Shown piece by piece: positions 19,525 to 49,500 of a stretch of DNA of 64,000 nt; position 1 is the first letter of the stretch; every line of letters begins with the position of its first letter. A model generated the notes under the pieces. That model was not told the origin of the DNA, did no database searches, and saw nothing but the letters and a program-made list of their open reading frames with translations. This DNA is from Limimaricola cinnabarinus (lineage in GTDB: Bacteria; Pseudomonadota; Alphaproteobacteria; Rhodobacterales; Rhodobacteraceae): positions 187,362 through 251,361 of the forward strand of contig NZ_KZ304953.1 in NCBI RefSeq assembly GCF_002723615.1, in the 5' to 3' direction. The position numbers and the translations under genes are program-made.

Positions 19525-19528
19525 GCCG

Positions 19529-19580: not shown

Positions 19581-19599
19581 GACCGGGAGGAGGAACAGC

Positions 19600-21392: not shown

Positions 21393-21434
21393 GCCGTGGG
21401 AGGCGGCGCGGCCGAAACAGTGGAGGAGAGAATC

Positions 21435-22601: not shown

Positions 22602-22608
22602 GGGCCCC

Positions 22609-22632
22609 GGCCGCGCCCGACCGGGCGCGGCC
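22609..22632 (+). terminator. Attenuating hairpin after the binding-protein gene
   Basis: GGCCGCGCCC and GGGCGCGGCC pair perfectly around a 4-base loop 8 bases after the stop codon. Only three T residues follow shortly after, so it is probably a partial terminator or RNA-stabilising stem. Confidence 0.6.
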
Positions 22633-22668
22633 GATCCTTTCCCTGCGATCCGAACCGGGAGACCCGCC

Positions 22669-23541: not shown

Positions 23542-23545
23542 AGCG

Positions 23546-24538: not shown

Positions 24539-25274
24539 GACCCGCAATCTCGACAAGAGCTTCGGCGCGATCCACGTCACCCGCGACGTGTCGCTAAAGC
24601 TGGAGCGCGGCGAGCGCCGCGTCATTCTCGGCCCCAATGGCGCCGGCAAGACCACGCTGTTCAACCAGCTCACCGGCGAGATCGCCCCGAGCTCGGGCCG
24701 GATCATCCTCGACGGCGCGGACGTCACCGCGCTGCCGGTGGCGCAGCGCGCCAGGGCCGGCCTGTCGCGCAGCTACCAGAAGAACACGCTGTTCGACGGG
24801 CTCAGCGTGGCCGACAATCTCGGCCTCGCGGCGATGGTGGCGCAGGGCCGGGGCATGGGGCTCGGTCGCGACGGGCTCCTCCACCCGGAGGTACGCGAGA
24901 CGGTGGAGGAGGTCGCCGCGCAGCTGCGGCTGTCGGACCATCTCGACGCAAGGGTAAGCGAGATCTCCTATGGCATGCGCCGACAGCTCGAGGTCGGCGT
25001 GGCACTGGCCACCCGGCCCAAGGTGATCCTGATGGACGAGCCGACCTCCGGGGTCGGGCCGGAGATGGCCAAGGGCTTCCACGATCTGCTGGCCGCGCTG
25101 CCGCGCGACCTGACGCTGCTGATCATCGAGCACGACATAGACCTCGCCTTCGCGGTGGCCGACACGATCACGGTGCTGAACTACGGCGAGGTGGTGTTCG
25201 ACGGGCTGCCCGAGGCGGCGCGCGGCAGCAGCCTGCTCAAGGAAATCTATCTGGGGAGCTGGGAAGATGCTTGA
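24531..25274 (+). CDS. ABC transporter ATP-binding protein (LivG-like)
   Basis: All the ATPase motifs are readable: Walker A GPNGAGKTT, Q-loop region, signature ISYGMRRQLEVG (a variant of LSGGQ), Walker B VILMDEP, then H-loop IEHDI. Length 247 aa. The variant signature is usual for LivG-type subunits. Overlaps the next ATPase gene by 8 bases. Confidence 0.87.
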   Translation: MLETRNLDKSFGAIHVTRDVSLKLERGERRVILGPNGAGKTTLFNQLTGEIAPSSGRIILDGADVTALPVAQRARAGLSRSYQKNTLFDGLSVADNLGLAAMVAQGRGMGLGRDGLLHPEVRETVEEVAAQLRLSDHLDARVSEISYGMRRQLEVGVALATRPKVILMDEPTSGVGPEMAKGFHDLLAALPRDLTLLIIEHDIDLAFAVADTITVLNYGEVVFDGLPEAARGSSLLKEIYLGSWEDA

Positions 25275-25968
25275 TCTGCTGGATGTCCGCTCGGGCTATG
25301 GCGAGACGCAGGTGCTGCACGGGCTGTCGCTCGCGGCGCGGCCGGGACGGGTGCTGGCGGTGCTGGGCCGCAACGGCGCCGGCAAGAGCACGACGCTCAA
25401 GACCATCATGGGGCTGCTGCCCTGCCGGGGCGGCGAGATCCGCCTCGACGGCGTGCCGATCGCCAAGCGCCCCTTCGACGTGGCCCGCGACGGCATCGCC
25501 TACGTGCCGGAGACGCGGGACATCTTTCCCTCGCTCACGGTGCGCGAGAACCTCGAACTCGCGGCGCGGCGCTTTGCTGCGAAAGGCGCGGGGAGCTGGA
25601 CGCTCGAGCGAGTGCTCGAACTCTTCCCGCGCTTGGGCGAGCGGATGGACAATGGCGGCACGCAACTCTCGGGCGGCGAACAGCAGATGCTGGCGATCGC
25701 GCGGGCGCTGCTAATGAACCCGCGGCTGCTGATCCTCGACGAGCCGACCGAGGGACTGGCACCGATTATCGTCAAGCTGATCCATGACAAGCTGCAGGAG
25801 CTTAAGCGCGCGGGGCTGACCATGGTGGTAGTCGAGCAGAATTTCGGTTTCGCCACCTCCCTTGCCGACGACGTGGCGGTAGTTAGTAAGGGGCAGGTGG
25901 TCTGGACCGGCAGCGCTTCCGAGATCCGCGCCGACGTGGAGGCGCAGCATCGCTGGCTCGGGGTCTGA
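25267..25968 (+). CDS. ABC transporter ATP-binding protein (LivF-like)
   Basis: The second ATPase has Walker A GRNGAGKST, signature LSGGEQQML, Walker B LLILDEPTEGLAP, and the H-loop replaced by VVVEQNF as in LivF. Length 233 aa. It is the last gene of the catB-benABCD-transporter group. The LysR gene beyond is convergent. Confidence 0.87.
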   Translation: MLDLLDVRSGYGETQVLHGLSLAARPGRVLAVLGRNGAGKSTTLKTIMGLLPCRGGEIRLDGVPIAKRPFDVARDGIAYVPETRDIFPSLTVRENLELAARRFAAKGAGSWTLERVLELFPRLGERMDNGGTQLSGGEQQMLAIARALLMNPRLLILDEPTEGLAPIIVKLIHDKLQELKRAGLTMVVVEQNFGFATSLADDVAVVSKGQVVWTGSASEIRADVEAQHRWLGV

Positions 25969-26009
25969 AGGCTGCATCGGTACGGGCCGCCAACGCGGCG
26001 GCCCGTGAT

Positions 26010-26900
26010 TCAAAACATTTTGCGCGCGACCTTCTGGGCGATGTCGACGAAGTTGCGCACATGCGCACTCTGTTCGTCATAGCGATAGTTCAGCGACAGT
26101 GCGGTCCGTGCGATCTCAGGTTCGATGCGCAGGAACTTCATGCCCTTGCGCGGTGCCGAGGAAACTGATTCCGGGACGATACAGACCCCTTCGCCCACCG
26201 AGACGAGGCTAAGTGCGGTCTGTAGATCCATGCACCAGACTCGAAGTGGCACCGGGAAGCCGGCCTTCTCACAAGCGTCGAGAATGAAGTCGGCAAAGCT
26301 CGGCCGGGGGTATTCAGGGTAGAGGATCAGATTGTGCGTCGCCAACCTTTCGAGTTTGGCCACGATACGCCCGCCGGTATCGACAGTGTCAGGTAGGGCC
26401 AAGATCAGCTTTTCCTCGAGCAACTCGCGGGTGACGAATTCGGCATCCACTAGTGCCGGGCGCCCGAAGGCCACGTCGATTTCGCGCGCCACCAGCGCGC
26501 GGTGCAGCTGCGCGTTGTTCATCGGCAGCAAGCTGAGATTGACCTCGGGGTAGTTGGCCCGAAAGGATTTAATGATAGTTGGCAGGATGCCGAAGGTCGA
26601 TGAGCCGACGAAGCCGATCCTGAGACGGCCTTCGGCGCCCTGGCCGATCCGCTTCACCTCGAGCCGGGCATCCTCGATCTGGCGCAGGATCGACACGCCA
26701 CGCTCGTAGAGCCGCTCGCCCGCCTGCGTGAGCGAGATTGCGCTGCGGCTGCGGTCGAAGAGCTGGGCACCGAGCTCCTCCTCGAGCTGCTTGATCTGGC
26801 GACTAAGCGGCGGCTGCGCCATGCCAAGACGTTCCGCTGCGCGGCCGAAATGCAGCTCCTCAGCCAGCGCCGTGAAGTAGGTCAGTTGTCTGAAATTCAT
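26010..26900 (-). CDS. LysR-family regulator of the CatR/BenM type, 296 aa
   Basis: The protein starts MNFRQLTYFTALAEELHFGRAAERLGMAQPPLSRQI, the CatM/BenM/CatR N terminus, with the usual inducer-binding domain (GRLRIGFVGSSTFGILP) and ATP-like length. Such regulators respond to cis,cis-muconate and/or benzoate and activate cat and ben promoters. It lies between the transporter operon and catA, in the same direction as catA but behind catA's terminator, so it has its own promoter. Confidence 0.82.
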   Translation of the reverse strand: MNFRQLTYFTALAEELHFGRAAERLGMAQPPLSRQIKQLEEELGAQLFDRSRSAISLTQAGERLYERGVSILRQIEDARLEVKRIGQGAEGRLRIGFVGSSTFGILPTIIKSFRANYPEVNLSLLPMNNAQLHRALVAREIDVAFGRPALVDAEFVTRELLEEKLILALPDTVDTGGRIVAKLERLATHNLILYPEYPRPSFADFILDACEKAGFPVPLRVWCMDLQTALSLVSVGEGVCIVPESVSSAPRKGMKFLRIEPEIARTALSLNYRYDEQSAHVRNFVDIAQKVARKMF

Positions 26901-26948
26901 CTGTCTCCCCCGAACTGCGATCATATGGGGTACGGGCGGCACTGGCAC

Positions 26949-31076: not shown

Positions 31077-32069
31077 CTAGGTGGAGGCGAGGCTCTCGCG
31101 GTCGGCCCGCCGCGCTAGCTTCTCGGCGAGGTTCGGTCCTACGCCGGGCCGCGACCAAGGGCAGACCGCGATGCAGATCCCGCAGCCATGGTGCTCGTTG
31201 AAGAAGGGCAGGCATCTATCGAAGTCGACGTACCATTTGCGCGTGCCGCGGACCTGCTGCTTCTCCGGGTAGATCGCCTCGGGCGGGCAGGCATCCTCGC
31301 AGATCCGGCAGCTCGCGCAGAAGGCATCGATGCCATGCTCACGCTGCGGGGTGGGGGCGAAGGGTGCATTGGTCAGCACCGCCGAGAGCCGGAAGTTCGC
31401 GCCGAGATCGCGGTCGATGATCGAGCCGTGCTTGCCGAGTTCCCCGAAGCCGCAGGCCAGCGCGGGTGGGATGAGGGTGAAGTCCCCGGTCATCGGCCCG
31501 GTCACCGGCTCCGCTGCCCATCCCTCCTGACGCAGCCAGCCCGCAACCTGCTTGGCGGCATGCGCGGCCCGTCCGTACTGATGGATGACCTCTGCGCAGG
31601 CCTCGACCTCGGGCGCTTGGCTAAGCCGGGCGTAGTCGTGCCGCACCCCTAGCATGATCACCCGCGACTGCGGCACAGAGCGGCCCTCGTAGCACCACTC
31701 GGCTTGCATCTCAGCGACGCCGGTCTTCTCGCACAGGCTGGCTTCGACAAAGCTGTCGAGCAGGGCGGTCCAATCTTCAGGCGCGCGCGTGACCTGCTCG
31801 GTGCCGACCTCCGGCAACGGCGCTTCGAGGATCGCCTGCCGCGCGGCCCGTTCCGCGAGAAGGGCGGGGGCGTCGGGCTGGACCGTGTAGAACCAACGCT
31901 GCATCTTGCCATGCGGGATCTGGTCCGGATCGGGGGCCCAGTAGACCAGGCGCGGCGGATGCGGATCGGGATCATCCAGCCCGTTGATGTCATTCCCCGA
32001 CACGATGGGTCTTAGCGCCATCTGGGCAGGGTCGGGCTGGTAGGGGCGATACGGATTGGGCTTCGGCAT
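31077..32069 (-). CDS. Double 4Fe-4S protein, reductive-dehalogenase/QueG-like, 330 aa
   Basis: Two [4Fe-4S] ferredoxin motifs are near the C terminus: CASCRICEDACPPEAI and CGICIAVCPWSRP. The N-terminal part belongs to the cobalamin-binding reductive dehalogenase / epoxyqueuosine reductase superfamily (FTLIPPALACGFGELGKHG..., SAVLTNAPF). There is no Tat signal, so it is not a typical respiratory RdhA. It is larger at the N terminus than QueG and lacks clear QueG specificity marks. Its 5' end and 3' end occur again as decayed fragments at 49.3 and 60.9 kb, so it seems to mark an integration hotspot. Actual substrate unknown. Confidence 0.7.
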   Translation of the reverse strand: MPKPNPYRPYQPDPAQMALRPIVSGNDINGLDDPDPHPPRLVYWAPDPDQIPHGKMQRWFYTVQPDAPALLAERAARQAILEAPLPEVGTEQVTRAPEDWTALLDSFVEASLCEKTGVAEMQAEWCYEGRSVPQSRVIMLGVRHDYARLSQAPEVEACAEVIHQYGRAAHAAKQVAGWLRQEGWAAEPVTGPMTGDFTLIPPALACGFGELGKHGSIIDRDLGANFRLSAVLTNAPFAPTPQREHGIDAFCASCRICEDACPPEAIYPEKQQVRGTRKWYVDFDRCLPFFNEHHGCGICIAVCPWSRPGVGPNLAEKLARRADRESLAST

Positions 32070-32636
32070 GGCCGGAGGTTAGCCGATCGGCGGCACGCTA
32101 CAAGCGGCCGTGGGCAAAGCGCGGGTTCACTCGAGAAGACCCTTCTTCATGACGTAAGGTCATCTGAAAAATAGTCGCCGCGACCTCGGTCAGAGGGGGG
32201 CGTCAGCCCCTTGGAGGCAAGGCGCAGGAAGGTTTGCGAAAAATCATAATCCTCGATTTTTCGCATAATTTCAGGTGTTTACGAATCTCCGGGGTGCTGC
32301 TTTAGGCCTCGCTGCCTCGAACATGTGGACAACCGAGAATCTCCGCTCGGGATTTTCACCCGGTTCGCTCATGTTGAAGGCAGACGAGGCGGTTGGAGAT
32401 TTCGAGGAAGCCGTACCTGACCCACCGGGCCGCCATACAGCGGGCTTCGAACACGGCGTCAGGGCGCAGAGCAGGCAAAAAAAGAGCGCGCCCCGAAGAG
32501 CGCGCAGAAGTCGAAGGCCGACTGCGGCCCTATCACATCGCGGACCGTAGACCCGAACACCGGGCACCCGCAACAACGCAGGCGGTCATATCCATCGATC
32601 GCCCGGAGCCGTTGGTTTCCGGGAGCGGAAGAAGAC
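32070..32636. other. Non-coding region before tnsA
   Basis: About 570 bases without a supported gene. The first 60-65 bases (promoter side of the iron-sulfur gene) are repeated at 49.47-49.53 kb. Then come the 32,235 hairpin and a small dyad (CCGAGAATCTCCGCTCGG at 32,332-32,349). The transposon end should be in this interval, but I could not identify convincing TnsB-site repeats or a terminal TGT. Confidence 0.6.
32235..32265. repeat. Perfect 11-bp inverted repeat
   Basis: TGCGAAAAATC and GATTTTTCGCA face each other across 9 bases in the non-coding region before tnsA. It could be an operator, a part of the transposon end, or a terminator for an approaching transcript (T-rich). Confidence 0.7.
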
Positions 32637-33374
32637 ATGATCCTCGATAACGACGAATGGCGGTACTCCCCGCTCAAGTACAAAAGACAGACGGCCATCC
32701 AGCTGGGACAGGTGCGGGGCGTTCTGCCCTACACCGGCGTGCGCAACCCGCTGTCCGCCAGCCATTCCAGCCACAAGGTCATGCTGACCTACCGGGTGCC
32801 GGCCAACGACAACCAGCCGAAGATCGGCCTTTGCGATAGCGCTGCCGAGCTTGCCGTGGCGCACGACCTGCTGATGCACCGGGATACCTACGATCTCGAG
32901 TTTCAGCCCTGCACCGTGAAGTTCAAGTTCGACGGTGCCCTCGAGAGCCACACCTACGATTTCCGCCTGACGCTGACGTCCGGCGAGCGGCGCCTGATCT
33001 ACGTGCGCTATAGGGAAAGCCTGAAGCGCCCGCGCACGAAAGCGCAGCTGCTGGCAATCGTGGCGGCCACGCCCGCCAGCGAAGGGCATCGCGTTCTGGT
33101 CGTTGATGCCGATTCCTATTCGCGCCCGCGCCGGGACAATTTGCGGCGGATGAGGATCGCTCTCGATCATCCCGACGATTGGGCTGACGAGGTTGTCTTC
33201 GACGCGGCTTGCCACCAGCGCAACCTCTGGCTCATGCGTGACCTGATCGCCGCCATCGACCTCGAGCCGTGGCGCTCCTTCCAGTCGATCCTGCGCCTTA
33301 TCGGCCGCGGCCAGATCAAGGCGAACCTCGACCAGGTGGTGGGCTATCATTCGCGTATCTGGTGGCCCGAATGA
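32637..33374 (+). CDS. tnsA: TnsA-like transposase endonuclease, 245 aa
   Basis: TnsA makes the 5' strand cuts during Tn7 cut-and-paste transposition. The restriction-like core is visible: Glu71 in SAAELAVAHDLL, the QPCTVKF strand, and Asp108 in SHTYDFRL. The last catalytic strand reads IYVRYRES, where a QxK pair is usual; here it is R124-x-R126, so the canonical Lys is lacking. The downstream HTH-like part is present. Length is near the family's usual. It begins a tnsABC operon with 4-base overlap to tnsB. Confidence 0.8.
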   Translation: MILDNDEWRYSPLKYKRQTAIQLGQVRGVLPYTGVRNPLSASHSSHKVMLTYRVPANDNQPKIGLCDSAAELAVAHDLLMHRDTYDLEFQPCTVKFKFDGALESHTYDFRLTLTSGERRLIYVRYRESLKRPRTKAQLLAIVAATPASEGHRVLVVDADSYSRPRRDNLRRMRIALDHPDDWADEVVFDAACHQRNLWLMRDLIAAIDLEPWRSFQSILRLIGRGQIKANLDQVVGYHSRIWWPE

Positions 33375-35545
33375 GCAAGTCGAGGCTCCCTGAACTTCCG
33401 ACTGCTGCCCTCGTAACGGCCGAGGGAGAGCAGGTGCTTGTCGCTGCCCGGTCCGAGCAGGGCCATGCACTGATCAACCTGACAGGATCTGGATGGGCTC
33501 CATTTCACGATAGCGATGGTCGTCCCGTGAAGCAGGGTGCCAGCATGTTGGCTGCCGCGACCGGCAATGCGGTCGACCAGAAAGCCCATGGCTACTTCCG
33601 GTACCGGTGGCAGCTTTCCGAGGAGGAACGTGAAAACGTCAAGTTCCGGGCAGCACTCTGCCATGCCATGTCGGAGATCGAAGGTCGCGACGGCCGGCTG
33701 ACCGAGGGCCGTCTCAACACGCCACAGGTGCGGCGCGAGATCGAAGAGACCGCAGGGACAATCTTTGGTCAGAAGATCGGCCGCGCGGAGATGCGGGGTG
33801 GACGGGCAAAGCTGGCCTGGCCCTTGCCGAAAGGGCGGACACTCCTGAAGTACCTCCGCATTTTCAAAGACGAAGGGGCGCACAGCGTTTCGCTGCAGGA
33901 CAGGCACCGACTCAAGGGTAACCGCAGCGGTCGGGTTACCCACGATGTCCGGTTGCTCATGACGGAGGCCAGCAAGGTTTGGCTAACTGAGCGCAAACCT
34001 TCAATGGCGGTAGCTCACGCTGAGCTGCGTGACCTCATCGAAAGCAAGAACAGACTTCGTCGCAGCAGGGGCCTCAAGGACCTGCAAGTGCCATCCCTCG
34101 CCACCCTGCGTGCCCACATCATGAAGAACGTGCCTTCGATCGCGCGGCATATCGCCCGCAATGGCGAGAAAGACGCCCATAACAAGCGGGGCCCCGGTTC
34201 GACCGATGTCCGTGCGCAGATGTTGGGCGAGCTGGTCGAGATCGATGAATGCAAGCTGTCCATCATCGTCGGGATCAAGGAGGCCGGGCAGTGGGAAGAA
34301 CTGGACGAGGTCCAGCGCGCGCGCCTCGTGGAACTGGAAGACGGTATCCGGAAACAGCGCATCTATCTCGTCTTGATGCTCGACGTCGCCACAAGGATGC
34401 CACTGGCGTGGGTGTTGACGGATCAGCCGCGGGCTGATGCGACGATGGCTGCCTTTGGCATGGCGACCCGCTCGAAGGAGAGGGAGCAGCAGAAGTATGG
34501 GTGCCTGCGGGAAGCAGCTCCTGCTGTCGGACTCGCTATGGTTCGCAACGATAACGGACCCGGCCTGCGCAACTCGGTGACGAAGACAGCCATGGCCGGT
34601 ATCGGGACGACCTCGGTCGACATGCGGACCCATCGCAGTGCCGACAAACCCTTCGTGGAAAGGATGTTCGGCACGTTGGAGACCGAACTGATTGCGAGGC
34701 TGACGGGCTATACCGGCAACGCCCCGGGGGCTTTGCCCGCATACGATGCCGTGGCAAACGGCAAGCTGCCGGTGGGCGTGCTGTACGAGATCATCACCCG
34801 CTACCTGACCGATATCTACCCACACGAACCTCATTTCGGCTTCGGCATGTTCGGGCGCACCCCCTATGAGGTCATGCAGCAGACCCTGCGGGAGCAGGGG
34901 ATGATCCCCCCGCCGTCGCCTCACGATCGGCGCGTCCATCTCGGGAAGATGGCTAGGGCTACCCCGAACGACGAGGGGATCCGGGCTTTCGGATTGCCGT
35001 ACCAGAGCACTGAGTTCCAGAAGCTCCGTGACCTCTACCGCGGCAAATGGGCTGTCTACTTGGATCCCGATGACCTCCGCGCCGCGACGGTGCTGATCGA
35101 AGGCTATAAAGAACCGATCGAAGCTCAGCTGACTGCTACGTTCTTTGCTGATCTCGACTTCTACGAAGCCAAAGCGATCATCGAGGAGTGTCGCCGCCAG
35201 AACCCGCGGAATGCCAATCCTTCCGAGCATCATCTCATGGAAGCATGGCGCGCGATCAAGGCGACCAACCGGGCCTTCGAGGGCCAATTCGGCTCGTGGG
35301 AAGACATAGCGCGAAAGTTTGAGAGGATGACACAGGGCATCCATCTTCCCCAATCGACTGGCCCGCTCGCGGTCGCGATGCCGGGAAGTCTCGCAGATGC
35401 CGATCCTGTTGGCGCTTTCTCCATCGGGGAGGGCGCTCCTGAGCCGCTGGAAGTGGCGCCGGCCGCTTCACCAAATGAGACCTCGCCTACCACCCCGACA
35501 GCGCGCCGTCTCGGCCGCCCGGAAACCAAAGGAAAGATGACGTGA
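33371..35545 (+). CDS. tnsB: TnsB-like DDE transposase, 724 aa
   Basis: TnsB recognises the transposon ends and makes the 3' cuts and joinings. The rve-type catalytic core is complete: Asp292 in VEIDECKL, Asp394 in VRNDNGPG and Glu430 in FVERMFGTLE, giving D-x101-D-x35-E. N-terminal DNA-binding domains and the Mu C-like barrel (YRGKWAVYLDPDDL) flank it. The ATG lies inside the tnsA stop. The last 90 residues are low-complexity Pro/Ala, probably the tail that binds TnsC. Confidence 0.88.
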   Translation: MSKSRLPELPTAALVTAEGEQVLVAARSEQGHALINLTGSGWAPFHDSDGRPVKQGASMLAAATGNAVDQKAHGYFRYRWQLSEEERENVKFRAALCHAMSEIEGRDGRLTEGRLNTPQVRREIEETAGTIFGQKIGRAEMRGGRAKLAWPLPKGRTLLKYLRIFKDEGAHSVSLQDRHRLKGNRSGRVTHDVRLLMTEASKVWLTERKPSMAVAHAELRDLIESKNRLRRSRGLKDLQVPSLATLRAHIMKNVPSIARHIARNGEKDAHNKRGPGSTDVRAQMLGELVEIDECKLSIIVGIKEAGQWEELDEVQRARLVELEDGIRKQRIYLVLMLDVATRMPLAWVLTDQPRADATMAAFGMATRSKEREQQKYGCLREAAPAVGLAMVRNDNGPGLRNSVTKTAMAGIGTTSVDMRTHRSADKPFVERMFGTLETELIARLTGYTGNAPGALPAYDAVANGKLPVGVLYEIITRYLTDIYPHEPHFGFGMFGRTPYEVMQQTLREQGMIPPPSPHDRRVHLGKMARATPNDEGIRAFGLPYQSTEFQKLRDLYRGKWAVYLDPDDLRAATVLIEGYKEPIEAQLTATFFADLDFYEAKAIIEECRRQNPRNANPSEHHLMEAWRAIKATNRAFEGQFGSWEDIARKFERMTQGIHLPQSTGPLAVAMPGSLADADPVGAFSIGEGAPEPLEVAPAASPNETSPTTPTARRLGRPETKGKMT

Positions 35546-36492
35546 GCTTCATCAATAGGGATGTTCTCGACACCGCCACCGAGCTCTATCGTTGGCGCTA
35601 CGAATTCGAACGGCGGGCCCAGCTGGAGCAAGCGTTCACCGGCATCGTGACGGAGTATTGGAGCCGTGCTGCAACAGGTAGGCACTTCGAAGCGCGGGGC
35701 CTGCTGGTGACCGGGGCCTCTCGCGTAGGCAAGACCAGCGAGATCAGCTTGATGCTTTCGAAGTTCAACGCGGCGCAAGACGTACTGCCCTGCGGGAAGG
35801 TGGCATCCGCCGTATCCTGCATCCTTGATGGCAAGATGAGCTGGAAGGATCTGGGGTTCAGGACGGCGGAGGCCCTTGGCTATCCTGTCCGTCAGCGCAG
35901 GATGACCCAGAGCGAGATCTGGTCGCGCGTCACGTTCCAGGCCAAGGAGCAGGGAGTGGTTGCTATCCATTTCGACGAGTGCCAGCACATCTTCCCGCGC
36001 AAGCCGGACCAGTCGACGCGGGCGCTGCTCGATAGCTTTAAGTCGCTCATGAAAAACCCGGACTGGCCGCTCATGCTGCTGCTCAGCGGGGTCGATGAGC
36101 TTGCCGGGCACGTGCGGCAGGAGGAGCAGCTTGCTCGCCTGCTTCGGCCGATCCATTTCCGGAACATCCAGTTACCGAGCGACGTGGAGGAGTTGAACCG
36201 GCTCTGCTTTCTCTATGGCGATACTGCGGGGATCAAATTCGATGGCCTCGACACCGAGGACTTCTACAACCGGTTGGCATTCGCCTGTGCCGATCGGTGG
36301 GGGTTGGTCATCGAACTTATGATCGACGCCTGCCAACACGCATTGGCCGAAGGTGCCGATCGGATGTCGGAGAGCCATTTCAGCGCAGCATTCGCTGACC
36401 GCAGCGGAACCCCAGCAGATTACACGCCGTTCAACGTGCCCGACTACGAACGTGCATTCGATATGAAGAGGATCTTGTTCGGGGTCGAGTAG
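35542..36492 (+). CDS. tnsC: TnsC-like AAA+ regulator, 316 aa
   Basis: TnsC is the ATPase linking target selectors to the transposase. Walker A GASRVGKT is at residues 58-65, Walker B IHFDECQ around 146, and sensor 1 MLLLSGVDEL follows. At 316 aa it is shorter than Tn7 TnsC (about 555) and resembles TniB-sized members. GTG start overlapping the tnsB stop. It completes tnsABC; the target-selector gene is convergent rather than in the operon. Confidence 0.87.
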   Translation: MSFINRDVLDTATELYRWRYEFERRAQLEQAFTGIVTEYWSRAATGRHFEARGLLVTGASRVGKTSEISLMLSKFNAAQDVLPCGKVASAVSCILDGKMSWKDLGFRTAEALGYPVRQRRMTQSEIWSRVTFQAKEQGVVAIHFDECQHIFPRKPDQSTRALLDSFKSLMKNPDWPLMLLLSGVDELAGHVRQEEQLARLLRPIHFRNIQLPSDVEELNRLCFLYGDTAGIKFDGLDTEDFYNRLAFACADRWGLVIELMIDACQHALAEGADRMSESHFSAAFADRSGTPADYTPFNVPDYERAFDMKRILFGVE

Positions 36493-36996
36493 GGCTCCTC
36501 TGTCCGTGGTTGGTCGGCCCGCGCAGGGGAGGTCGCGCGCCGCGAGGGGTGGCGAAGCCAGATCCGCTTGGTTCGGCTGATGCGGCCAGAGTAGCCAGTT
36601 CATGAAATGGCGCCGAAACACGTCTGGCGGGTGCGGTGAGCCGACGAAGTCATGACGGCGCGGATGAGCTACCGCAGACTTTCCGAGACGCGTGCTCCGC
36701 CGGCTAGAGGCTTGCACCCGCGCGCAGCGCTTGAGGTATCGCCTCGCGCCAGCGACTACGACGGTCTCCCCGGTTGATCTGACTGATGTCGTCCAAACAT
36801 CTCGAGCTCCGCTTCCCAACTGCAAACTTGTGATCGGCTGTTTGCTGAACAGGGTCGGAGGGGTCTTGGTGCGCTCGAATACTCGCAAACAATTGCTATC
36901 AGCTCGCAAGCTTATGGCCCCGTATAAATGCTAGAGGCGCGCAGGTGGCTGATATTGCTTATTAAATTTGGGTCTAAGATCAGAGAAATCTATTCG
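36493..36996. other. Gene-poor stretch between tnsC and the repeat array
   Basis: About 500 bases with no supported gene. On the minus strand a short coding-like stretch (around HPPDVFRRHFMNWLLWP) near 36,590-36,650 may be a fragment of another gene, but it has no start and I cannot name it. AT content rises toward 36.9 kb. Confidence 0.4.
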
Positions 36997-37073
36997 ATTC
37001 GCACTCTTATGCCGCTCTGGCAGGTATGCCAGAAAGGCATATGAGTGCGAATTGAAAGCATAAGCGTGCGAGT
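36997..37073. repeat. Inverted and direct copies of a 16-17 bp motif between tnsC and tniQ
   Basis: ATTCGCACTCTTATGCC at 36,997-37,013 is inverted at 37,036-37,052 (GGCATATGAGTGCGAAT, 16 of 17 matching). A third, direct copy GCATAAGCGTGCGAGT lies at 37,058-37,073, 21 bases after the second. Between the inverted copies TCTGGCA/TGCCAGA form a further stem. The pattern fits protein-binding sites or a structured RNA. Confidence 0.75.
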
Positions 37074-37097
37074 TACACGTCAAGTGCTTTCTACGAT

Positions 37098-37121
37098 GAC
37101 CCCGGCAGACATGCCGGGGTC
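37098..37121. terminator. Hairpin at the tnsABC/tniQ convergence
   Basis: GACCCCGGCA and TGCCGGGGTC form a perfect 10-bp stem with a 4-base loop. It overlaps the tniQ stop codon and could terminate both convergent transcripts, although the following T-runs are poor. Confidence 0.6.
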
Positions 37122-38958
37122 ATTCTCGTTTAGGCCAATGGCATAGAAAGTGGCGTTCAAGGGCCGTCCACAAGAAGAGGTTTTCGTGCTTTGTTTCGCC
37201 GTCGAAGAATCTCCGCTCCAGCAGGCCGAAAGCAGGCGACAGCAACTTCTGCCATGGCCATCCAGTCTCCAGCGACAAGCGGCGGAGCGGGACAAAAGTC
37301 TCGTCGAAGGACCGGCGATCGCTCTCAGTGATATAGGGCTGGACCGCCTTTCGCTTGGGGTTGGAAGCGTTCGTGGCTCGGATATGGCCGGAGGCAACGA
37401 GCTGCGTCATCTGCGTGGGCTTGAGGCCGACTGATTTGGCGAACACCTCGAGCGTTAGGCCCGGAGCGTGATCGATATTCAGCTTGCTTTGCAGTTCGTC
37501 TCGGTCGACCAGGATCGAGGCGTAGCCTGTGGCCTGCGAGTAGCTGCCAATTCGACGAAGCTCGCCTTTCTTGATTAGGTCGATGATCTCGGCGGGGCGG
37601 ACCCGAAGCTGATGGCAGGCCTCTTGCAGCGTACGCCAGCCATGCATCTTTGCATGAACTGTTTCGGCGCCACGTAGGAGGTCAGCAACGAAGCGATGAG
37701 CATCGGTGGCCTTCCACAGAGGCTTCGCACCTGCTGCCGCGATCGCCGGCGACAGATAGCCATCTGCTCTGAGCGATTCGAATTGGGACCGAGAGATATT
37801 CATCAGCTGCTGCAGTTCGATCCCGCTCACCATTCGATTGAGCTCTTCGATGATGGGCTTCACCGCCTTGGCGTCGAACACCGCCCATTCGTCGGTGCTG
37901 CTCAAGGCCGCGCCTGTCAGTATTCCTCGCTCGCGCAGAAGTTTACGCAGACGGCGATCATCGATCCCGCCCTCCTCCGCAGCCGTCCGAACGGAATGGA
38001 GCCTACGCTCGAGAACGGGCTCCCCCATCACGTTGTCTCCTGCGCCGACCGGCCAGGTTGCCAGGATATGGTCGCGAATGATTCCCCTGAAAACGCCGTA
38101 AGGCTCGGACGTCAGTTCATGCGCAAACCTGTCGTACAGGTCGCCGAAGACGCCCTTCGGTCCCTGCCGGGGCGCTCCCAACTTGGATTGCAGCCGAGCA
38201 AGCGTGTCGCGAACTTGGTCTGGTCCTTCCGCCGAAAGCACATACCCCGTTGCCGCTTCGGCCCAAAGCTCGTCCGGATGAACGCGGTTTCGTCCTCCGG
38301 TCTCCAGACGTACCGCGGCCCGCCCTAGTAGTTCGGAAAAGACGCAGACGGCCTGCAGATCGATGCCATCGAACCAGTTCCCGCTATGCTGACCGTGCAG
38401 CCGGTCGGCCACGTATAGCTCGAAGAGGCTCGCCTCCCTCGGCTCACCATCGAGCCCCCCCTCTTCGAGGGACGTTCGGATCTCAGCTAGACGCGCAGCG
38501 AAGTCGAAGCGGACAGTTGAAGCAGGATCGGCCCATAGGTCGACCAGCGGCATTTCATGCTCGGTGCAAACACGGAGGTGGCGCAGCAACCAGTCGGCGC
38601 GCATGTGGGGCATCCAGGGGGACGGGTCCTTGGCCATGTCCTCTCGAAGGCATGCAGGGCAGCCTCTGATGGCCACGGGCTTAATGCTCTTAGCGTGGAA
38701 GATTTCACCACGAAACGAATGTTCGCGACCTCCTAGGTGAATGGGTGTCCACTCCAAAAGGGCATCGAGCGCTACCCCACCTAGTTCTGCCAAACGCTGG
38801 CAGACCAACTCATCGCCTTGAATGATCTTCGAGAAGGGAAGCTCGAAGTCCGCGCCGAAGGTACTGGTTGGCAAGCCATTCCGGCTCGCGAGGCGCGACA
38901 TGAAGGAGAAGGCTGGTTCCTGTTCGCCGAGGGGAACGGAGAGGGGAAGTGATAACAT
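37120..38958 (-). CDS. tniQ: TniQ/TnsD-family target selector, 612 aa
   Basis: The N-terminal TniQ domain is recognisable (PAFSFMSRLASRNGLP) with its zinc site Cys100-x2-Cys103...Cys131-x2-His134 (CPACLRED and CTEHEMPL). A long helical part with several HTH-like segments follows, such as GLTLEVFAKSVGLKPTQMTQLV. The size, 612 aa, is above many TniQ proteins and near TnsD, which suggests direct recognition of an attachment sequence. The single selector means no TnsD/TnsE pair in this window. Its promoter should be in the 267-bp gap upstream, and read-through from the defence operon, in the same direction, is possible. Confidence 0.8.
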   Translation of the reverse strand: MLSLPLSVPLGEQEPAFSFMSRLASRNGLPTSTFGADFELPFSKIIQGDELVCQRLAELGGVALDALLEWTPIHLGGREHSFRGEIFHAKSIKPVAIRGCPACLREDMAKDPSPWMPHMRADWLLRHLRVCTEHEMPLVDLWADPASTVRFDFAARLAEIRTSLEEGGLDGEPREASLFELYVADRLHGQHSGNWFDGIDLQAVCVFSELLGRAAVRLETGGRNRVHPDELWAEAATGYVLSAEGPDQVRDTLARLQSKLGAPRQGPKGVFGDLYDRFAHELTSEPYGVFRGIIRDHILATWPVGAGDNVMGEPVLERRLHSVRTAAEEGGIDDRRLRKLLRERGILTGAALSSTDEWAVFDAKAVKPIIEELNRMVSGIELQQLMNISRSQFESLRADGYLSPAIAAAGAKPLWKATDAHRFVADLLRGAETVHAKMHGWRTLQEACHQLRVRPAEIIDLIKKGELRRIGSYSQATGYASILVDRDELQSKLNIDHAPGLTLEVFAKSVGLKPTQMTQLVASGHIRATNASNPKRKAVQPYITESDRRSFDETFVPLRRLSLETGWPWQKLLSPAFGLLERRFFDGETKHENLFLWTALERHFLCHWPKRE

Positions 38959-39225: not shown

Positions 39226-42558
<3,333 letters not shown>

Positions 42559-42570
42559 CTCATATCACTT

Positions 42571-45309
42571 TCAAATATCCATGCGGGTCTGGCGGTTCTT
42601 GTCGGTCACGCGAATCGTGGCTGCCAGCCGGGTCAAATCTGTCCAGACAGCGATCAGGCCGTTGTAGGAGGTCGCCTCCTTCGCGTCCTGGCGCTTGTTG
42701 CCGCAGACGTCATAGAGGTAGTAGGCAAGATCCTTCACCGTCTCAGCGCGCTCGCTGCCAATCTTCTTCAGCAGTTCTGCCGCCGCGTATTCGCCGTCAT
42801 TTTCCAGCGCGCGGATCAGGTGCTGGCAGGCCTCCCAGATCGTGAAATGATCATCGGTCTCGGGGTCCCAGTCGGGGTCGAGCTCGTCACGCTTCAGGAT
42901 GCGGACCTTTCCGGCCGAGCTTTCGATGATCCCCGCGTGCTTGACGCTTTCGACCGAGATGCCGCGCGCCGTGGCGATGCTGTTGGCGGTGCCATACACA
43001 CCCTTGTCGAACCCGTTCTGTTGAAACCAGGTGGCAGTAAAGCGCGTCTCGGCATCGAACTCGCCATGCAGGTCGTTCAAATACTCATCCAGCTGAGAGT
43101 TTATCAGCTGCAAGGCTGTCTTAACGCTCATCGGACTGTCGTCAGCTTCTAGCACTGTCGCGTATCGGGAGAAGACGCCCATACCGGGGCCGATAGCCGA
43201 TTGCGGCATGTCGGCCGGGGCGATGCTCGCAGCCTGAAGCTCGGCAATGGCTGGTGGCAGTTCGCGCTTCAAAGCACGAGTAAACTCAGCACGGGTGATT
43301 GTCTCGGCCATCTCTTCCTTCTTCCGACAAACGAGCACGACGGAGTTAGCGAGAGCATTTGAACCGGCAGCTCTCATCCTATTGGCCATTTCCGTACGCA
43401 TCGGCCACGTGCCTACGACCGAGTAGCCAGCGTCAATTATTGCCTGCAAAAAAGTCGCCCAACCTGTGGAGCTTACTCCCTCTTGCGCGATCTCGCTCTG
43501 CTTAAATGCATAGTATATTGTGGCGGGAAAGGCTTCACTTGAACTGCGAGCCATTCTCGAGACTGCTGCGGTCATTCCGGACAGGAAAAACTGTTCTGCA
43601 TTACTAGTGCCGCTATGTCGCATTCTGTCAGCAACGAGTTCATCCATTTTCGGAACCGCCATCGTTCCGAAAATACTAGGGTAGATCTCCCGGAGCATCC
43701 GCCTCAACCAGCCGTAAAAAAAGTCGGAAAGATCAGCGTAAGGGATATTATCATAGTACGGCGGATCTGAAGAAATCACCATATCACTTGAGTAGGTGAC
43801 GCTCTGAGCATCAATATTGACGATCTTTCCTGAGCCGCCGCCAACCCATCGATCTACGGCCTTCGAAACAGTGGTCGCACTAACCAGAAAATCTCCGGCT
43901 GTGCCAGAGAACGGATTCGCTTCAAAATAGTCCCAGGTCATCGGAATAGCTTGGCGCCCAAACATATTCTTCAACTGAATTTTGTCAGCAGCCCAGCGGC
44001 AGTGTGCGTTGCAACTGTCTGCCAACCGACTTATCGCGAGGGCAAGATACGTGACTACTGCGGATGCATAATCGTCACTCTGCCTGATTTCAGATCTTAC
44101 TTCTTCGAGTAAATCAGCAAATGTGTTGAGCGCAACGAGCTGACGATCCGTGAATAGATCTCCGAAAGTCTCGTAGCCATATCCTAGAACGCCGATATAC
44201 TGGCTGTGATTTGGCAGTTTCGTTCCCGGTTCCCAGTTCGGGCGAACCGAGTCTGCAATATGCTCATGCTGAGAAGTAGCCTCTGCGAACGCACGTCCAG
44301 ATTTTGCGCTCACTACAACAGCAAGAAGGGTGCGGCCCATCTTTCCGCTGCGCGCGCACTCTTTAACGTATTTCGGGGTAATCGCCGATCCTGAGATTAT
44401 GCAGCGAAAGTTCGCCCCACGGGCTTCCTTTGTTCCGCTCTTTGCGCTCTCGAGGTCAGCCTTCGAACCGCCCACCCTAATCTTGAACGATATCGATTTG
44501 GTCTGTCTATCTACCACGGGCTCAAGCCAAGCTGTCCGCCCTGACTTCAAGCTCAGCAGAAAGCTTGAGGCAATCGGCACCTGAACATCTGAGAAGGCAG
44601 GGTCCGGGCTAGGAACGGTACGGGACCAAATCCATCCAATGACCGGGGCGCGCCCGCCACCATATGCTTCCGGTGTTTCGGCGTCAGGATAGAGGTGCCC
44701 GATGCGCTCCCATGCCTTCTCGCGCATCCACTCGCCGTAGTATTTCACATCCTCGGCGAGCCCTTCGGCATTGCGATAAAACGACCGGTCCTTGATGCCC
44801 GGATGGATCGGTTCCATGTCCTTGAACTTCGGCGGGATCTCGATCATCGCCTTGCCGATCATCACCGCCACCGGGTTCAGGTCCGACCCATAGGCGGGCA
44901 GGCCAAGGCGCTGCGCCTCTAGCGGGATCGACCCACCACCCGAGAACGGGTCATAGACCGGCGGCAGCTCACCGCCGCAGCTGCGCCGGATTTCTGCCCG
45001 TGCGCGCTCTAAGACTTCCTCGTTGGTCGAGTTCTCCCATTTCACCAGCTCTTCGATGATCTGGAACAGACGCTTGCGTTCGACCTCTACTGTCTCATCG
45101 GTCGGGAACTGATCCGGGTGGCTGGAGGGGTCATCCACCAGCTGCGCAAACAGCACCGCCCGACACGCCGCCAACGGCCGCCGCGCCCACCACAGGTGCA
45201 GCGTGCTGGGATGCCCATGCCGGATCGACTTCTCCCGCGCCGACGCCGCGTTGATCGCTTCGAGGGGGATCGCGACTTCGATTAGTTTCTTCTTGTAGGC
45301 TTGGGTCAT
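42571..45309 (-). CDS. DUF1156 adenine-specific DNA methyltransferase, 912 aa
   Basis: The N terminus (LIEVAIPLEAINAASAREKSIRHGHPSTLHLWWARRP, described in two parts at residues 9-45) is the DUF1156 signature. The methylase motifs are DPFSGGGS at 120-127 (AdoMet binding) and SDPPYYDN at about 515 (catalytic DPPY). So it should methylate adenine (or cytosine N4) in DNA, most likely to mark self DNA in the operon's defence mechanism. It overlaps the ASCH gene by 4 bases. The long sequence between the two motifs probably holds target recognition. Confidence 0.85.
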   Translation of the reverse strand: MTQAYKKKLIEVAIPLEAINAASAREKSIRHGHPSTLHLWWARRPLAACRAVLFAQLVDDPSSHPDQFPTDETVEVERKRLFQIIEELVKWENSTNEEVLERARAEIRRSCGGELPPVYDPFSGGGSIPLEAQRLGLPAYGSDLNPVAVMIGKAMIEIPPKFKDMEPIHPGIKDRSFYRNAEGLAEDVKYYGEWMREKAWERIGHLYPDAETPEAYGGGRAPVIGWIWSRTVPSPDPAFSDVQVPIASSFLLSLKSGRTAWLEPVVDRQTKSISFKIRVGGSKADLESAKSGTKEARGANFRCIISGSAITPKYVKECARSGKMGRTLLAVVVSAKSGRAFAEATSQHEHIADSVRPNWEPGTKLPNHSQYIGVLGYGYETFGDLFTDRQLVALNTFADLLEEVRSEIRQSDDYASAVVTYLALAISRLADSCNAHCRWAADKIQLKNMFGRQAIPMTWDYFEANPFSGTAGDFLVSATTVSKAVDRWVGGGSGKIVNIDAQSVTYSSDMVISSDPPYYDNIPYADLSDFFYGWLRRMLREIYPSIFGTMAVPKMDELVADRMRHSGTSNAEQFFLSGMTAAVSRMARSSSEAFPATIYYAFKQSEIAQEGVSSTGWATFLQAIIDAGYSVVGTWPMRTEMANRMRAAGSNALANSVVLVCRKKEEMAETITRAEFTRALKRELPPAIAELQAASIAPADMPQSAIGPGMGVFSRYATVLEADDSPMSVKTALQLINSQLDEYLNDLHGEFDAETRFTATWFQQNGFDKGVYGTANSIATARGISVESVKHAGIIESSAGKVRILKRDELDPDWDPETDDHFTIWEACQHLIRALENDGEYAAAELLKKIGSERAETVKDLAYYLYDVCGNKRQDAKEATSYNGLIAVWTDLTRLAATIRVTDKNRQTRMDI

Positions 45310-45713
45310 GCGAGTGCCTTTACAGCCTCGTCTGCTGCTAGAGCATCAGATACGCGTTGATCGAGAGTGACCCAGATGACTGCGCCGCTCTTGTGGGTGT
45401 ATGGAATGGGCCGGTGAAGCCTCACGGCGCTTGACATGATCCATGCATGTCGATGCTTCGCGAATTTTCCCGAGAGGAAAGTCTCGGGTGGGATGTGATG
45501 CTTGTCTTGGTTGTCGAGCATCTTCTGATCGGACAGAGGGCCTTCAGCCCCCACCATCTTGGCCACGCCAACGATATGGCCGCTGCCCTTCTTGACGAGA
45601 CCGATCCAGCCGCGCTGCTTGGCAGAGGTGCTTCGCATCTCCCATGTCTTCTCGCTTCTCATGATCTTGCTGATCCAAGGTTCGTCGATGATAAGCGCTT
45701 TCTCGATCTTCAT
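45306..45713 (-). CDS. ASCH-domain protein, 135 aa
   Basis: A small beta-barrel ASCH/PUA-like protein: the start has IIDEPWISKIMRSEKTWEMRS, the position where ASCH proteins carry their G-x-K-x-x-E-x-R signature, here modified, followed by HIVGVAKMVG and a C-terminal strand. ASCH domains bind RNA or modified nucleotides. It sits between helicase and methylase genes with 4-base overlaps on both sides, strongly suggesting a functional subunit of the same system. Confidence 0.75.
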   Translation of the reverse strand: MKIEKALIIDEPWISKIMRSEKTWEMRSTSAKQRGWIGLVKKGSGHIVGVAKMVGAEGPLSDQKMLDNQDKHHIPPETFLSGKFAKHRHAWIMSSAVRLHRPIPYTHKSGAVIWVTLDQRVSDALAADEAVKALA

Positions 45714-48700
45714 GCCGGTGCCTCTGCTCGCTCAAGCAAGCGATTGATATTAAACTGGATTGCGTTCTGATCGAACGGCGGTTCGCGCGAGTCGAGCGCA
45801 CCGTGTACATACCTCGGGGCAGAAGCGAACCCCTCTTTGACCTGCACGATCGCGAGGATGAACTTTTCGGGTTCGTGGAGCGAGGTGATTATTTCTTGGC
45901 GGGTTAACATGATGGTATCTGCGCCGTCGACCCGGCCTTTGACCTCAATGAACCGCATATGGTTGGTATCAGGATCGAAGGAGGCGATGTCATAGCCGAT
46001 TTTGCGGGCGGACACGTCCTCGGGCTCGTTTCCAAGGGCACGCTCGGACGCCATGACGGCAGCCATCGCCTTCAACTCGATCTCGCGGCGGGCTTCAGGG
46101 TCTTCTGAAAAGCCATTGGGTGCAACAGAGTTGCCCTTCTTCAGGAGCAGGCCTCTCGGAACCACGACCATTCCGCCCCGGACGCGCGGGGGCAGGGACG
46201 TGATAAAGCGCTCCTGCTCGATCACCTCTAGACGGCGGCGTAGGCGTTCGGCGAGGTCCTCAGCCCGTCGCTCCGCGTTGCGCCAGTTTGACCGGACCTT
46301 CTTGCCCGCTTTTTCCTCTTCTTTCAGCTCGGCGGCGCGAGAATCCCAGTAGTTGATCTCTTTCTTCAGGCGCGCTTTGACCTCGTGCTCGACCTTATCG
46401 ATCTCCGGGAGGCGCCGCTCTCGAACTTCGGCAACATGGCCTTGAGCAAGCTCGATGGTCGCGTATTGGACGACGCGCTTTTCCAAGTCTGCCGTAAGCC
46501 AAGGGGCGCTGATCTCAGTCTGGACAGAGGTGATCTCCTCTGGTGTCGCAGCCCGCAGGTTCAGGTGCGGCGCGATCCCGGCATCATGAATTTCACCTGC
46601 CTGACTGATTGTTGCAAATTGGAGCTTTTGCGAGACAAGGTTGGCATTGCCTGCGTGACCAGGACGCCCGTCCTGCACCGAGTGTTCCAGAAGGAAAAGG
46701 GCTTCGACTGCTGTCCCGTCGTCGGTGTCGTCGACCAGCACGGCCCCTTGTTTCATCAGGTGATCGTTCTGTTCGCGGACTACGCTGATCACTGCGTCTA
46801 GCAAGGGGTGGCCTGGATAGACGAAGGCCGCCACCGGTTGCTGGTTGATCTTCGACTTCTCGAAGCAAATCCGTTCATACTTCTTCTGGATCGGCGCCCC
46901 GCCGCCGATCTGGCGATCCCGCTCCCTGATGATGAGCGGGACGTGGGTAATCTCCCACCGGCCTTCTTCCCGTCTCTTGATCTGACCGCCAAGGCGCTGG
47001 AAGGCTTCCACGAAGAAGCTCTGAATGTGGTGAGGTTGGAGGCGTTGCGCCTCGGCCTTCTCCATCGCGATCCGAAGCTCTTGGACTTGGGCCGCTGGCA
47101 TAGTGTCGTTTGTGAGTTGCCGCTTCTGAAGAAGGTCGAGGAGATGGCTTTGATCTACCGCGCCATCGACGGCTTTGTAGAGGCGCGCCCTCACGTCCTC
47201 ATCGTCGTTGTACTGGATTGCTTCCAGAAGCAGATCCCGCAGCGGCCGATCCTCGAAGAGCTCGCCCAGGACATCATAGACTCGTCCTCCTAAAGCCTCG
47301 CGGGCGGCTTCAAGCTTTTCGAGCAGGCGCGCATAGACGTCCCCTTCGCGGGTGTCTTTCGCAACGAGGTTCCAGAGGTGGCATACCTCGGTTTGCCCGA
47401 TCCTATGGATGCGACCAAACCGCTGCTCAATCTTATTCGGGTTCCAGGGAAGGTCATAGTTCACCATCAGATGCCCGCGCTGAAGGTTGACGCCTTCACC
47501 TGCCGCATCGTTAGCAATGAGGACAAGCATGTCCCTGTCCTGCATGAAGCGTTCGACGACCTTGCGGCGCTCCTCGCGCGTCACTCCGCCATAGATCACG
47601 TCCACTGCATCGGGTTTGCCGAGGCGCGCGGTCACCTTGTTGCGAAGATATTCGAGCGTGTCTTTCGGCTCGGTGAAGATGATCAGCTTGCGACGGTGCC
47701 CGTCGGGATCGAGCATCAGATCATCATCGAGGATCTTGTCGAGCTGCTGCCACTTGGTGTCATGCCCGGAGTGAAGAACGCGGAGGGCCATGCCCTCCAG
47801 TCCTTTAAGGGTTTCGACCTCGATCTCCAGCTGCTCGGCCGTCTCCGCACTAGTTGCGCTAGTCGAAATTAGGTCTTCCATCTCGTCGATTTCGTCCTGA
47901 CCATACTCGTCGATATTGGTCAGCAGGTCTTGATTGACCTTGGGTTGGGAGAAGCCTGCCCTCTCACTCTTGGCGGCGAGCCGCGCCTCGCTCAGCTCAG
48001 CTTCGAGCCGCTCCCGGCGTCGCTTGAGCGACTGGTAGATTGCGGCGGGGCTGGAGGCCAGACGTCGCTGGAGAATTTGCAGAGCGAAACCGACGTTGTT
48101 CTTCTTGCGCCCATCCGTGTCAGCGAACCTCAAGACGCGGTTCATCTCATCGCGCACGTAGTCCGTAACCGCGGTGTAGAGTTCGGCTTCTTCCGGAGAG
48201 AGGTCGTACTTGACTGTGTAGGCGCGACGCTCCGGGAAGAGGGGGCGACCGTCAAAACGCAGCAGCTCTTCTTTGGTCAGACGGCGCATCATGTCTTCGA
48301 CGTCTGCGACATGGACGCCGTCCCGGAAACGGCCTTCGAAGCGGTCCCCATCCAAGAGCGCCATGAAAAGCTGGAAGTCACGTTCCTTGCCGTTGTGGGG
48401 CGTGGCCGACATCAGCAGGAAGTGACGACAGACCTGTCCCAGCTTCTGCCCAAGCTGATACCGCTTGGTGTATTTGGCCTCGCTGCCAAAAAATGTCGCG
48501 GACATACGGTGGGCTTCGTCGGCGATGATCAGATCCCATTCTGTCGACTTGAGGAGCTTTTCCTGAAGCTCTTCATTGCGCGCCAGGACATCCAGGCGCG
48601 CAATCATCCTGTTGCAGTCGTTGAATGGATTACCGGAGCGGGAGCTCTCGATCATGTCTCGGCTCAGGATATCGAACTCCAAGCCGAACTTTTCTCCAAG

Positions 48701-49210
48701 TTCATCCTGCCACTGCTCAACAAGGCTGCCAGGTGCGACCACTAGGCATCTTTCGAGATCACTGCGGGCGATTAGCTCCTTAATCAGAAGGCCAGACATA
48801 ATGGTTTTGCCCGCGCCCGGATCATCGGCCAACAGGAACCGCAAGGGCTGCCTTGGCAACATCTCTCCGTAAACTGCCGAGATTTGGTGAGGAAGAGGAT
48901 CGACCTGACTGGTGTGGATCGCCAGATAAGGATCGAAAAAATGGGCGAGCTTGATGCGGTTTGCTTCGGTCACCAGGCGCAGGAGTGCCCCATCCGCGTC
49001 GAACGACCAGTTTCGGCCGGCAGACTGGATATCAATGCGGTACTCGTCATCGCGGTAAATGGTCGTCTCGGCTACAGTGCCACTCGTCTGACGAAATACA
49101 AGGTTGATGGCTTGGTTGCCGATCCATTCTACGGACACCACATCCACCGCTGTACCCGGCACAACGCCAGCTACGCGACCTCCAGATCTAATTTCTTCGA
49201 GCTTTGCCAT
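45710..49210 (-). CDS. SNF2-family helicase with DUF3883-type C terminus, 1166 aa
   Basis: The SF2 helicase core begins at about residue 105: Walker A ADDPGAGKT (129-136), DEAH at 231-234, SATPHNG motif III, and motif VI region EQRFGRIHRIGQ. The C-terminal part resembles DUF3883 (GYDIASF...MRFIEVKGR), a PD-(D/E)xK-like domain with the E-x-K ending, so it may add nuclease or DNA-end recognition. This resembles DrmD-type helicases of DISARM and the helicase of helicase-methylase-ATPase defence systems. It is the first gene of the operon. Confidence 0.85.
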   Translation of the reverse strand: MAKLEEIRSGGRVAGVVPGTAVDVVSVEWIGNQAINLVFRQTSGTVAETTIYRDDEYRIDIQSAGRNWSFDADGALLRLVTEANRIKLAHFFDPYLAIHTSQVDPLPHQISAVYGEMLPRQPLRFLLADDPGAGKTIMSGLLIKELIARSDLERCLVVAPGSLVEQWQDELGEKFGLEFDILSRDMIESSRSGNPFNDCNRMIARLDVLARNEELQEKLLKSTEWDLIIADEAHRMSATFFGSEAKYTKRYQLGQKLGQVCRHFLLMSATPHNGKERDFQLFMALLDGDRFEGRFRDGVHVADVEDMMRRLTKEELLRFDGRPLFPERRAYTVKYDLSPEEAELYTAVTDYVRDEMNRVLRFADTDGRKKNNVGFALQILQRRLASSPAAIYQSLKRRRERLEAELSEARLAAKSERAGFSQPKVNQDLLTNIDEYGQDEIDEMEDLISTSATSAETAEQLEIEVETLKGLEGMALRVLHSGHDTKWQQLDKILDDDLMLDPDGHRRKLIIFTEPKDTLEYLRNKVTARLGKPDAVDVIYGGVTREERRKVVERFMQDRDMLVLIANDAAGEGVNLQRGHLMVNYDLPWNPNKIEQRFGRIHRIGQTEVCHLWNLVAKDTREGDVYARLLEKLEAAREALGGRVYDVLGELFEDRPLRDLLLEAIQYNDDEDVRARLYKAVDGAVDQSHLLDLLQKRQLTNDTMPAAQVQELRIAMEKAEAQRLQPHHIQSFFVEAFQRLGGQIKRREEGRWEITHVPLIIRERDRQIGGGAPIQKKYERICFEKSKINQQPVAAFVYPGHPLLDAVISVVREQNDHLMKQGAVLVDDTDDGTAVEALFLLEHSVQDGRPGHAGNANLVSQKLQFATISQAGEIHDAGIAPHLNLRAATPEEITSVQTEISAPWLTADLEKRVVQYATIELAQGHVAEVRERRLPEIDKVEHEVKARLKKEINYWDSRAAELKEEEKAGKKVRSNWRNAERRAEDLAERLRRRLEVIEQERFITSLPPRVRGGMVVVPRGLLLKKGNSVAPNGFSEDPEARREIELKAMAAVMASERALGNEPEDVSARKIGYDIASFDPDTNHMRFIEVKGRVDGADTIMLTRQEIITSLHEPEKFILAIVQVKEGFASAPRYVHGALDSREPPFDQNAIQFNINRLLERAEAPA

Positions 49211-49261: not shown

Positions 49262-49500
49262 TGACCTGTCCCGTGCCTCGCTGGAGAACCAGCCCTGCGA
49301 CTTGCCACCGCGGAGTTAGTCCTGCTCGAGTTCTGTAGGCCACGTGTAACAGGCGAGAGACCAGGTGCTCAGCTCACTTATCTCCTTGCTCGATACGACG
49401 GCGTCCGCGTCAGCTGAGCGGGATAGGGAATGAATGGACGGTATGGATTAGGCTTCGACATGGCCGGAAGTTATCCGATCGCAGCCGCGCTACAAGCGGT
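49262..49500 (-). pseudogene. Decayed 5' end of the iron-sulfur (RdhA/QueG-like) gene
   Basis: The minus strand from 49,463 reads MSKPNPYRPFIPYPAQ, against MPKPNPYRPYQPDPAQ in the intact gene at 32,069. With frame changes it continues through VVSSKEISEL, a LACYTWP-like piece and GGKSQGWFS (GKMQRWFY in the intact gene) until about 49,262, where similarity ends. On the upstream side the match also covers about 35-60 bases of promoter region (CTACAAGCGG in both). It has stops and frameshifts and is not expressed as protein. Confidence 0.85.

Follow-up and report, generated by a model that had tools for sequence, protein, structure and literature searches.

The repeat cluster between tnsC and tniQ of Limimaricola cinnabarinus is very probably the meeting point of two Tn7-like elements stacked downstream of nrdJ

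The repeat cluster that lies between tnsC and tniQ in the L. cinnabarinus window (the whole 64,000-nucleotide stretch of DNA analysed here) is almost certainly the right end of one Tn7-like element, A, abutting the left end of another, B, the two being inserted head to tail downstream of nrdJ, by its sequence the putative gene of a B12-dependent ribonucleotide reductase. The ends, their boundaries, the tandem arrangement and the site preference are read from the DNA sequence, and the cluster is an ordinary structure of a known kind, i.e., normal transposon end sequences. Three protein hallmarks of Tn7-like elements are present: a TnsB DDE transposase, a TnsC AAA+ regulator and a TniQ/TnsD target selector. 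The features of the junction and of the genes that flank it are listed below in window coordinates (LE and RE, left and right ends; C3, the contig; L004 and L011, loci of L. variabilis and L. hongkongensis, respectively; site scores in bits).

32637..33374, + strand: tnsA-like gene of element A, 245 aa, named by position
33269..35545, + strand: tnsB (DDE transposase) of element A, with an uncertain start
35542..36492, + strand: tnsC (AAA+ ATPase) of element A, Pfam AAA_22 and TniB matches above cut-off
36881..36897, - strand: inner putative TnsB-type site of right end A (weak), score 18.3, below the simulated maximum of 18.7, 21 bp from its neighbour
36902..36918, - strand: inner putative TnsB-type site of right end A (fourth copy), score 16.6, similar doublets near other right ends
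36997..37013, - strand: terminal putative TnsB-type site of right end A, score 27.2, same 17 bases at right ends B, L004 and L011
37022: final base of element A (right end ...CTCTGGCA), the point at which similarity to the L011 right end is lost
37023..37027: GGTAT, target duplication of A, found as well in front of LE-A next to nrdJ; element B starts with its last T
37027..37130, + strand: left end of element B (TGCCAGAAAGGCATATGAG...), 94% identical to C3:176699-176802
37036..37052, + strand: terminal putative TnsB-type site of left end B, score 25.7
37057..37073, + strand: second putative TnsB-type site of left end B, 21 bp on, score 26.1
37096..37123: perfect 12-bp stem-loop at the tniQ 3' end, found in LE-B and in the six nrdJ-side left ends, slightly altered in some of them
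37120..38958, - strand: tniQ/tnsD-like target selector of element B, 612 aa, Pfam TniQ 3.1e-17, PADLOC TniQ 2.4e-17
39226..49210, - strand: HmaC, HmaB and HmaA anti-phage genes, cargo of element B, PADLOC 1.3e-292, 0 and 0, respectively

The name of tnsA rests on position, since searches of Pfam, NCBIfam and PDB gave no match to the 245-aa ORF itself; it is 67% identical to its counterparts in B and in the Limimaricola elements and is always located directly upstream of tnsB. The product of tnsB-A matches TnsAB/TnsB of type I-F CASTs in PDB (E values of 2.5e-7 to 1.1e-6, within an overall range of 2.5e-7 to 8.5e-4 for PDB TnsB/TnsAB matches) and PADLOC TnsB (4.1e-7), while tnsC-A shares 77-80% identity with its counterparts in element B and in the two Limimaricola elements. 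TniQ-B contains a sub-threshold HTH_17 match at residues 443-489. The stem-loop at the 3' end of tniQ is probably a bidirectional terminator between the host gene and tniQ; the terminator scan did not flag it.

When the 64-kb window was scanned, the motif GCATAWGNGTGCGA was detected without mismatch at 36999-37012 (-), 37037-37050 (+) and 37058-37071 (+). The three exact copies fit in 73 bp, and no further copy with fewer than two mismatches was present in the 64 kb. The three GCATAAG-GTGCGA copies described in a first-pass annotation made from the sequence are thus confirmed, as is the direct copy located 21 bp from the preceding one. The inverted pair is also real, but its length had been understated: the arms (36993-37022 and 37027-37056) are 30 nt long rather than 17 bp, are 87% complementary and are separated by a 4-nt spacer. 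The count of three fell short, since a fourth copy, CATAAGCTTGCGA, is an exact match to the relaxed motif at 36904-36917 (-). A weaker fifth copy at 36881-36897 lies 21 bp from the fourth.

The genome was then searched with the window segment 36890-37130, and three places were found, one being the site itself. At C3:176699-176802, only the right half of the segment (37027-37130) is matched, with 94% identity; this copy is located directly 3' of the nrdJ stop codon and leads into a second tniQ. At C3:264270-264309, the contig end, only the left half (36990-37028) is matched, with 90% identity, and this copy comes after a second tnsC, the last gene of a complete tnsABC. The similarity to each half breaks in the middle of the palindrome. 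Element A thus corresponds to C3:176698-224383 (~47.7 kb), with a left end beside nrdJ, tniQ-A, tnsABC-A and a right end at window position 37022. Element B extends from window position 37027 to C3:264302 (~39.9 kb), from its left end through tniQ-B to tnsABC-B at the contig end. Among the tnsC genes of the eight genus genomes, four in number, there is no other of A's type, so A is without a close single-copy relative and its boundaries rest on its own ends.

In L. hongkongensis (L011, L041), a single element of ~22.7 kb occupies the nrdJ site; tniQ is at one of its ends, tnsABC at the other, and each boundary carries a half-repeat: nrdJ, the left end and tniQ are found at C7:224895-228256, and tnsABC with the right end at about C7:244589-248998. 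Element B resembles this L. hongkongensis DSM 17492 element (L011, L041, L046, L047) in its ends, its site, its TniQ (98.7% identical, compared to 76% between TniQ-B and TniQ-A) and its TnsA, TnsB and TnsC (98, 97 and 93% identical, respectively); unlike the arrangement studied here, the L. hongkongensis element is a single insertion. Its nucleotide identity to B is 94-96% in both end regions, with unmatched stretches between them, and the aligned blocks extend from position 3 to position 39917 of the 39927 positions of B. The corresponding proteins of A are only 67, 51 and 79% identical to those of the L. hongkongensis element. These identities assign the tnsC and the tniQ on either side of the motif to different elements. 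At L004 of L. variabilis and L011 of L. hongkongensis, the tnsC-side half occurs alone, and unrelated DNA comes next. Similarity to the L011 right end breaks at query position 138 of 211, and the same break is seen at RE-B and at C19 of L. variabilis.

The position between tnsC and tniQ had therefore been described correctly, but not the relationship between the two genes, and the cluster is located not inside an element, as had been supposed, but at two ends. This also bears on the suggestion that the cluster is an internal operator controlling the expression of convergent tnsC and tniQ genes of one element. Such an operator would account for the palindrome and the phased motif copies in a gap between convergent genes. 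It is nevertheless extremely unlikely, because tnsC and tniQ come from two different elements; moreover, single elements carry copies at two boundaries, one beside nrdJ and the other beside unrelated DNA, and in L. hongkongensis the two halves are ~22.7 kb apart. A search for a σ70-like promoter at the junction found none, which also counts against an operator.

A matrix trained on 16 end sites, all of them from other genomes, was applied to C3:170000-264309 (94.3 kb), and 20 simulated 94-kb sequences (first-order Markov), the top score of which was 18.7 bits, served as a chance control. Only six matches above 20 bits were found, at C3 positions 176708, 176729, 224358, 224397, 224418 and 264277. 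Two of them are in LE-A, three at the junction and one in RE-B, with none elsewhere. The junction sites scored 27.2, 25.7 and 26.1 bits against the simulated maximum, so that the cluster is far beyond chance. Away from the ends, matches of 14.0 to 16.2 bits occurred at 177729, 178755 and 260472. Left ends contain two copies of the site spaced 21 bp apart. Close to the terminus, the right ends of A, B, L011 and L004 contain the 17-mer GGCATAAGAGTGCGAAT (reverse strand), and further in a doublet, also with 21-bp spacing; these inner doublets, at 15.4-18.3 bits, do not score above the simulations, and their assignment rests on position. As judged by this held-out scan of 94 kb and by alignment of the ends, inverted arrays of ~20-bp transposase-type sites are present at both ends only. 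The first-pass annotation had proposed TnsB-like sites with ~21-bp phasing and a search for the motif at the ends of homologous elements; the search was run, and the same repeats were found there, which supports the proposal.

Since the ends are inverted, a right end that abuts a left end has the appearance of a 30-bp palindrome. A structured RNA had also been proposed. In favour of this proposal, or of a guide RNA, a 91-nt stretch between tnsC and tniQ folds at -49.9 kcal/mol (z -8.4). However, this fold is the palindrome of the two inverted ends; that hairpin is not formed by a left end (z -1.2) or a right end (z -2.6) on its own. Because the hairpin exists only where two ends meet and is not conserved, an RNA is an exceedingly improbable explanation of the cluster. 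Rfam covariance models at gathering scores gave 0 matches in the window.

The sequences next to the ends agree with two transpositions. GGTAT comes after the end of RE-A at 37022 and again before LE-A, beside nrdJ. RE-B is followed by GGGTA, and without A the DNA in front of LE-B would read GAGGGTA-TGCCAG. Each duplication matches at 5/5 bases at the expected places, although the right duplication of B is read from only 7 bases, since the contig stops 7 bases after RE-B. The pattern of GGTAT and GGGTA fits the insertion of B first and of A later, 4 bp from the left end of B, and we infer this order of insertion. In L. hongkongensis the duplication (ACGGG) matches only with 6 extra left-end bases; in L. 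variabilis, where the two ends are on different contigs, a shift of one base is needed for a match.

Tyrosine-recombinase core sites and circle junctions likewise typically show inverted motif copies around a short spacer. The cluster could thus be a recombination site (res/dif/attC-like) or the RE-LE junction of an excised circle of one element. This is hardly credible, given that the two ends come from elements whose TnsB proteins are only 51% identical, that the two outer ends were found where predicted and that the duplication pattern fits two transpositions. An assembly misjoin, in which RE and LE were fused at a shared repeat and the elements are not truly adjacent, could be suspected in a draft assembly of 67 contigs in which the contig stops right after another RE. 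We consider it very unlikely, because the 5-bp duplication is clean: the GGTAT at the junction is repeated in the flank of LE-A on the nrdJ side. The chromosomal DNA on the far side of RE-B was sought by synteny, but no neighbourhood in this genome matched the flank in L. hongkongensis or that of the empty G006 site.

The attachment site of both A and B is nrdJ. In six of the eight genus genomes (G000, G003, G004, G005, G008 and G009), nrdJ is followed by a left end and in G007 by a short scar; G006 contains no element. The left end or scar is located 14-19 nt past the nrdJ stop codon in all seven, the eighth site being empty. Since tnsC of this kind is present in only three of the eight genomes (G000, G004 and G009), several of the nrdJ-site copies look decayed or incompletely assembled. 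In two left ends beside nrdJ, L040 (G008) and L038 (G005), tniQ appeared by eye to be interrupted or missing, and tnsC of this kind was not found in these genomes. The scar just past nrdJ in L039 (G007:C21) reads TTGCCAGAAAGGCATATTATGCTGACA; it joins the opening bases of a left end to what seem to be the closing bases of a right end and is apparently the whole remnant of an element.

Among 394 genomes of the family (393 genera), the exact nrdJ-plus-LE pattern was found in this genome only; since no mismatches were allowed, the strict pattern says little about diverged relatives. A search of genome contigs retrieved 27 tnsC loci, with no nrdJ match in the DNA examined around them, and more distant relatives may use other sites. 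To our knowledge, nrdJ is not among the known Tn7-like sites. No paper tying Tn7-like elements to nrdJ or to a ribonucleotide reductase site was found in a literature search of mainly open-access main texts, and the word "ribonucleotide" is absent from the main text of two Tn7 surveys (PMC10293859, PMC8649781). As a Tn7-like landing site, nrdJ may be new.

In Tn7-like elements, according to the two surveys, TnsB acts on the end repeats and TniQ/TnsD on the site, with TnsC as the link (PMC8649781, PMC10293859); the ends are inverted terminal arrays of ~20-bp repeats placed ~10 bp off the boundary, and an element can insert inside or beside another, giving multiple left and right ends (PMC8649781). 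By analogy, we infer binding of the repeats by TnsB and targeting by TniQ. The motif GCATAAGNGTGCGA would be the terminal TnsB-type binding site, with 21-bp-phased copies at the ends. TniQ/TnsD would recognise the 3' end of nrdJ, TnsC would then be recruited, and TnsAB on the terminal repeats would insert the element 14-19 bp past the nrdJ stop codon with a 5-bp duplication. B would have entered first (duplication GGGTA) and A later, at the same site, 4 bp from the end of B (duplication GGTAT).

A and B share with Tn7-like transposons (heteromeric TnsABC plus TniQ/TnsD) the tnsABC genes (tnsA being putative), the TniQ-family selector, defence cargo, the inverted end repeats and insertion downstream of a conserved gene at a short and constant distance. 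They differ in that tniQ is located at the end opposite tnsABC, with its 3' end towards nrdJ, and in that the site is nrdJ, not glmS. Compared to other tandem or adjacent Tn7-like insertions at one site, the ends here abut at a distance of 4 bp, and identity between the two TnsB proteins is only 51%. A broader reading, which we put forward tentatively and hold as somewhat doubtful, is that the elements represent a Tn7-like lineage with an undescribed protein-guided site, the 3' end of nrdJ, and with tniQ at the nrdJ end. Elements with divergent TnsB (51%) and near-identical terminal repeats, which have apparently exchanged DNA upstream of tnsA, would stack in tandem, escape target immunity and possibly mobilise each other's ends or the whole 88-kb array. 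The A/B pair, in which divergent TnsB proteins go with the same 17-bp terminal site, would be a natural test of target-immunity evasion in stacked Tn7-like elements, and nrdJ is pointed to as a safe landing site.

What had looked like an odd internal motif gives exact transposon boundaries and defines the cargo of two large elements, one of them with an Hma anti-phage system. Between HmaB and HmaA, a 135-aa ORF (45306-45713) has a sub-threshold ASCH match. The cargo of element A at window positions 15288-26948 is catabolic-looking rather than defensive and includes a Rieske ring-hydroxylating oxygenase, LysR regulators and a branched-chain amino acid type permease.

A stretch of ~1.4 kb upstream of tnsA-A (window 31236-32635) is 89-97% identical to B. 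Its left part is a minus-strand gene of a 4Fe-4S protein, and the rest is largely intergenic. At the adjacent tnsA/tnsB, the identity between A and B falls sharply to 47-77%. This boundary suggests inter-element recombination or replacement of the transposase module. Also upstream of tnsA, a 64-nt stretch of A (32044-32107) is 83% identical to positions 49436-49499 in B, and related copies of it are present at two places in the L. hongkongensis element.
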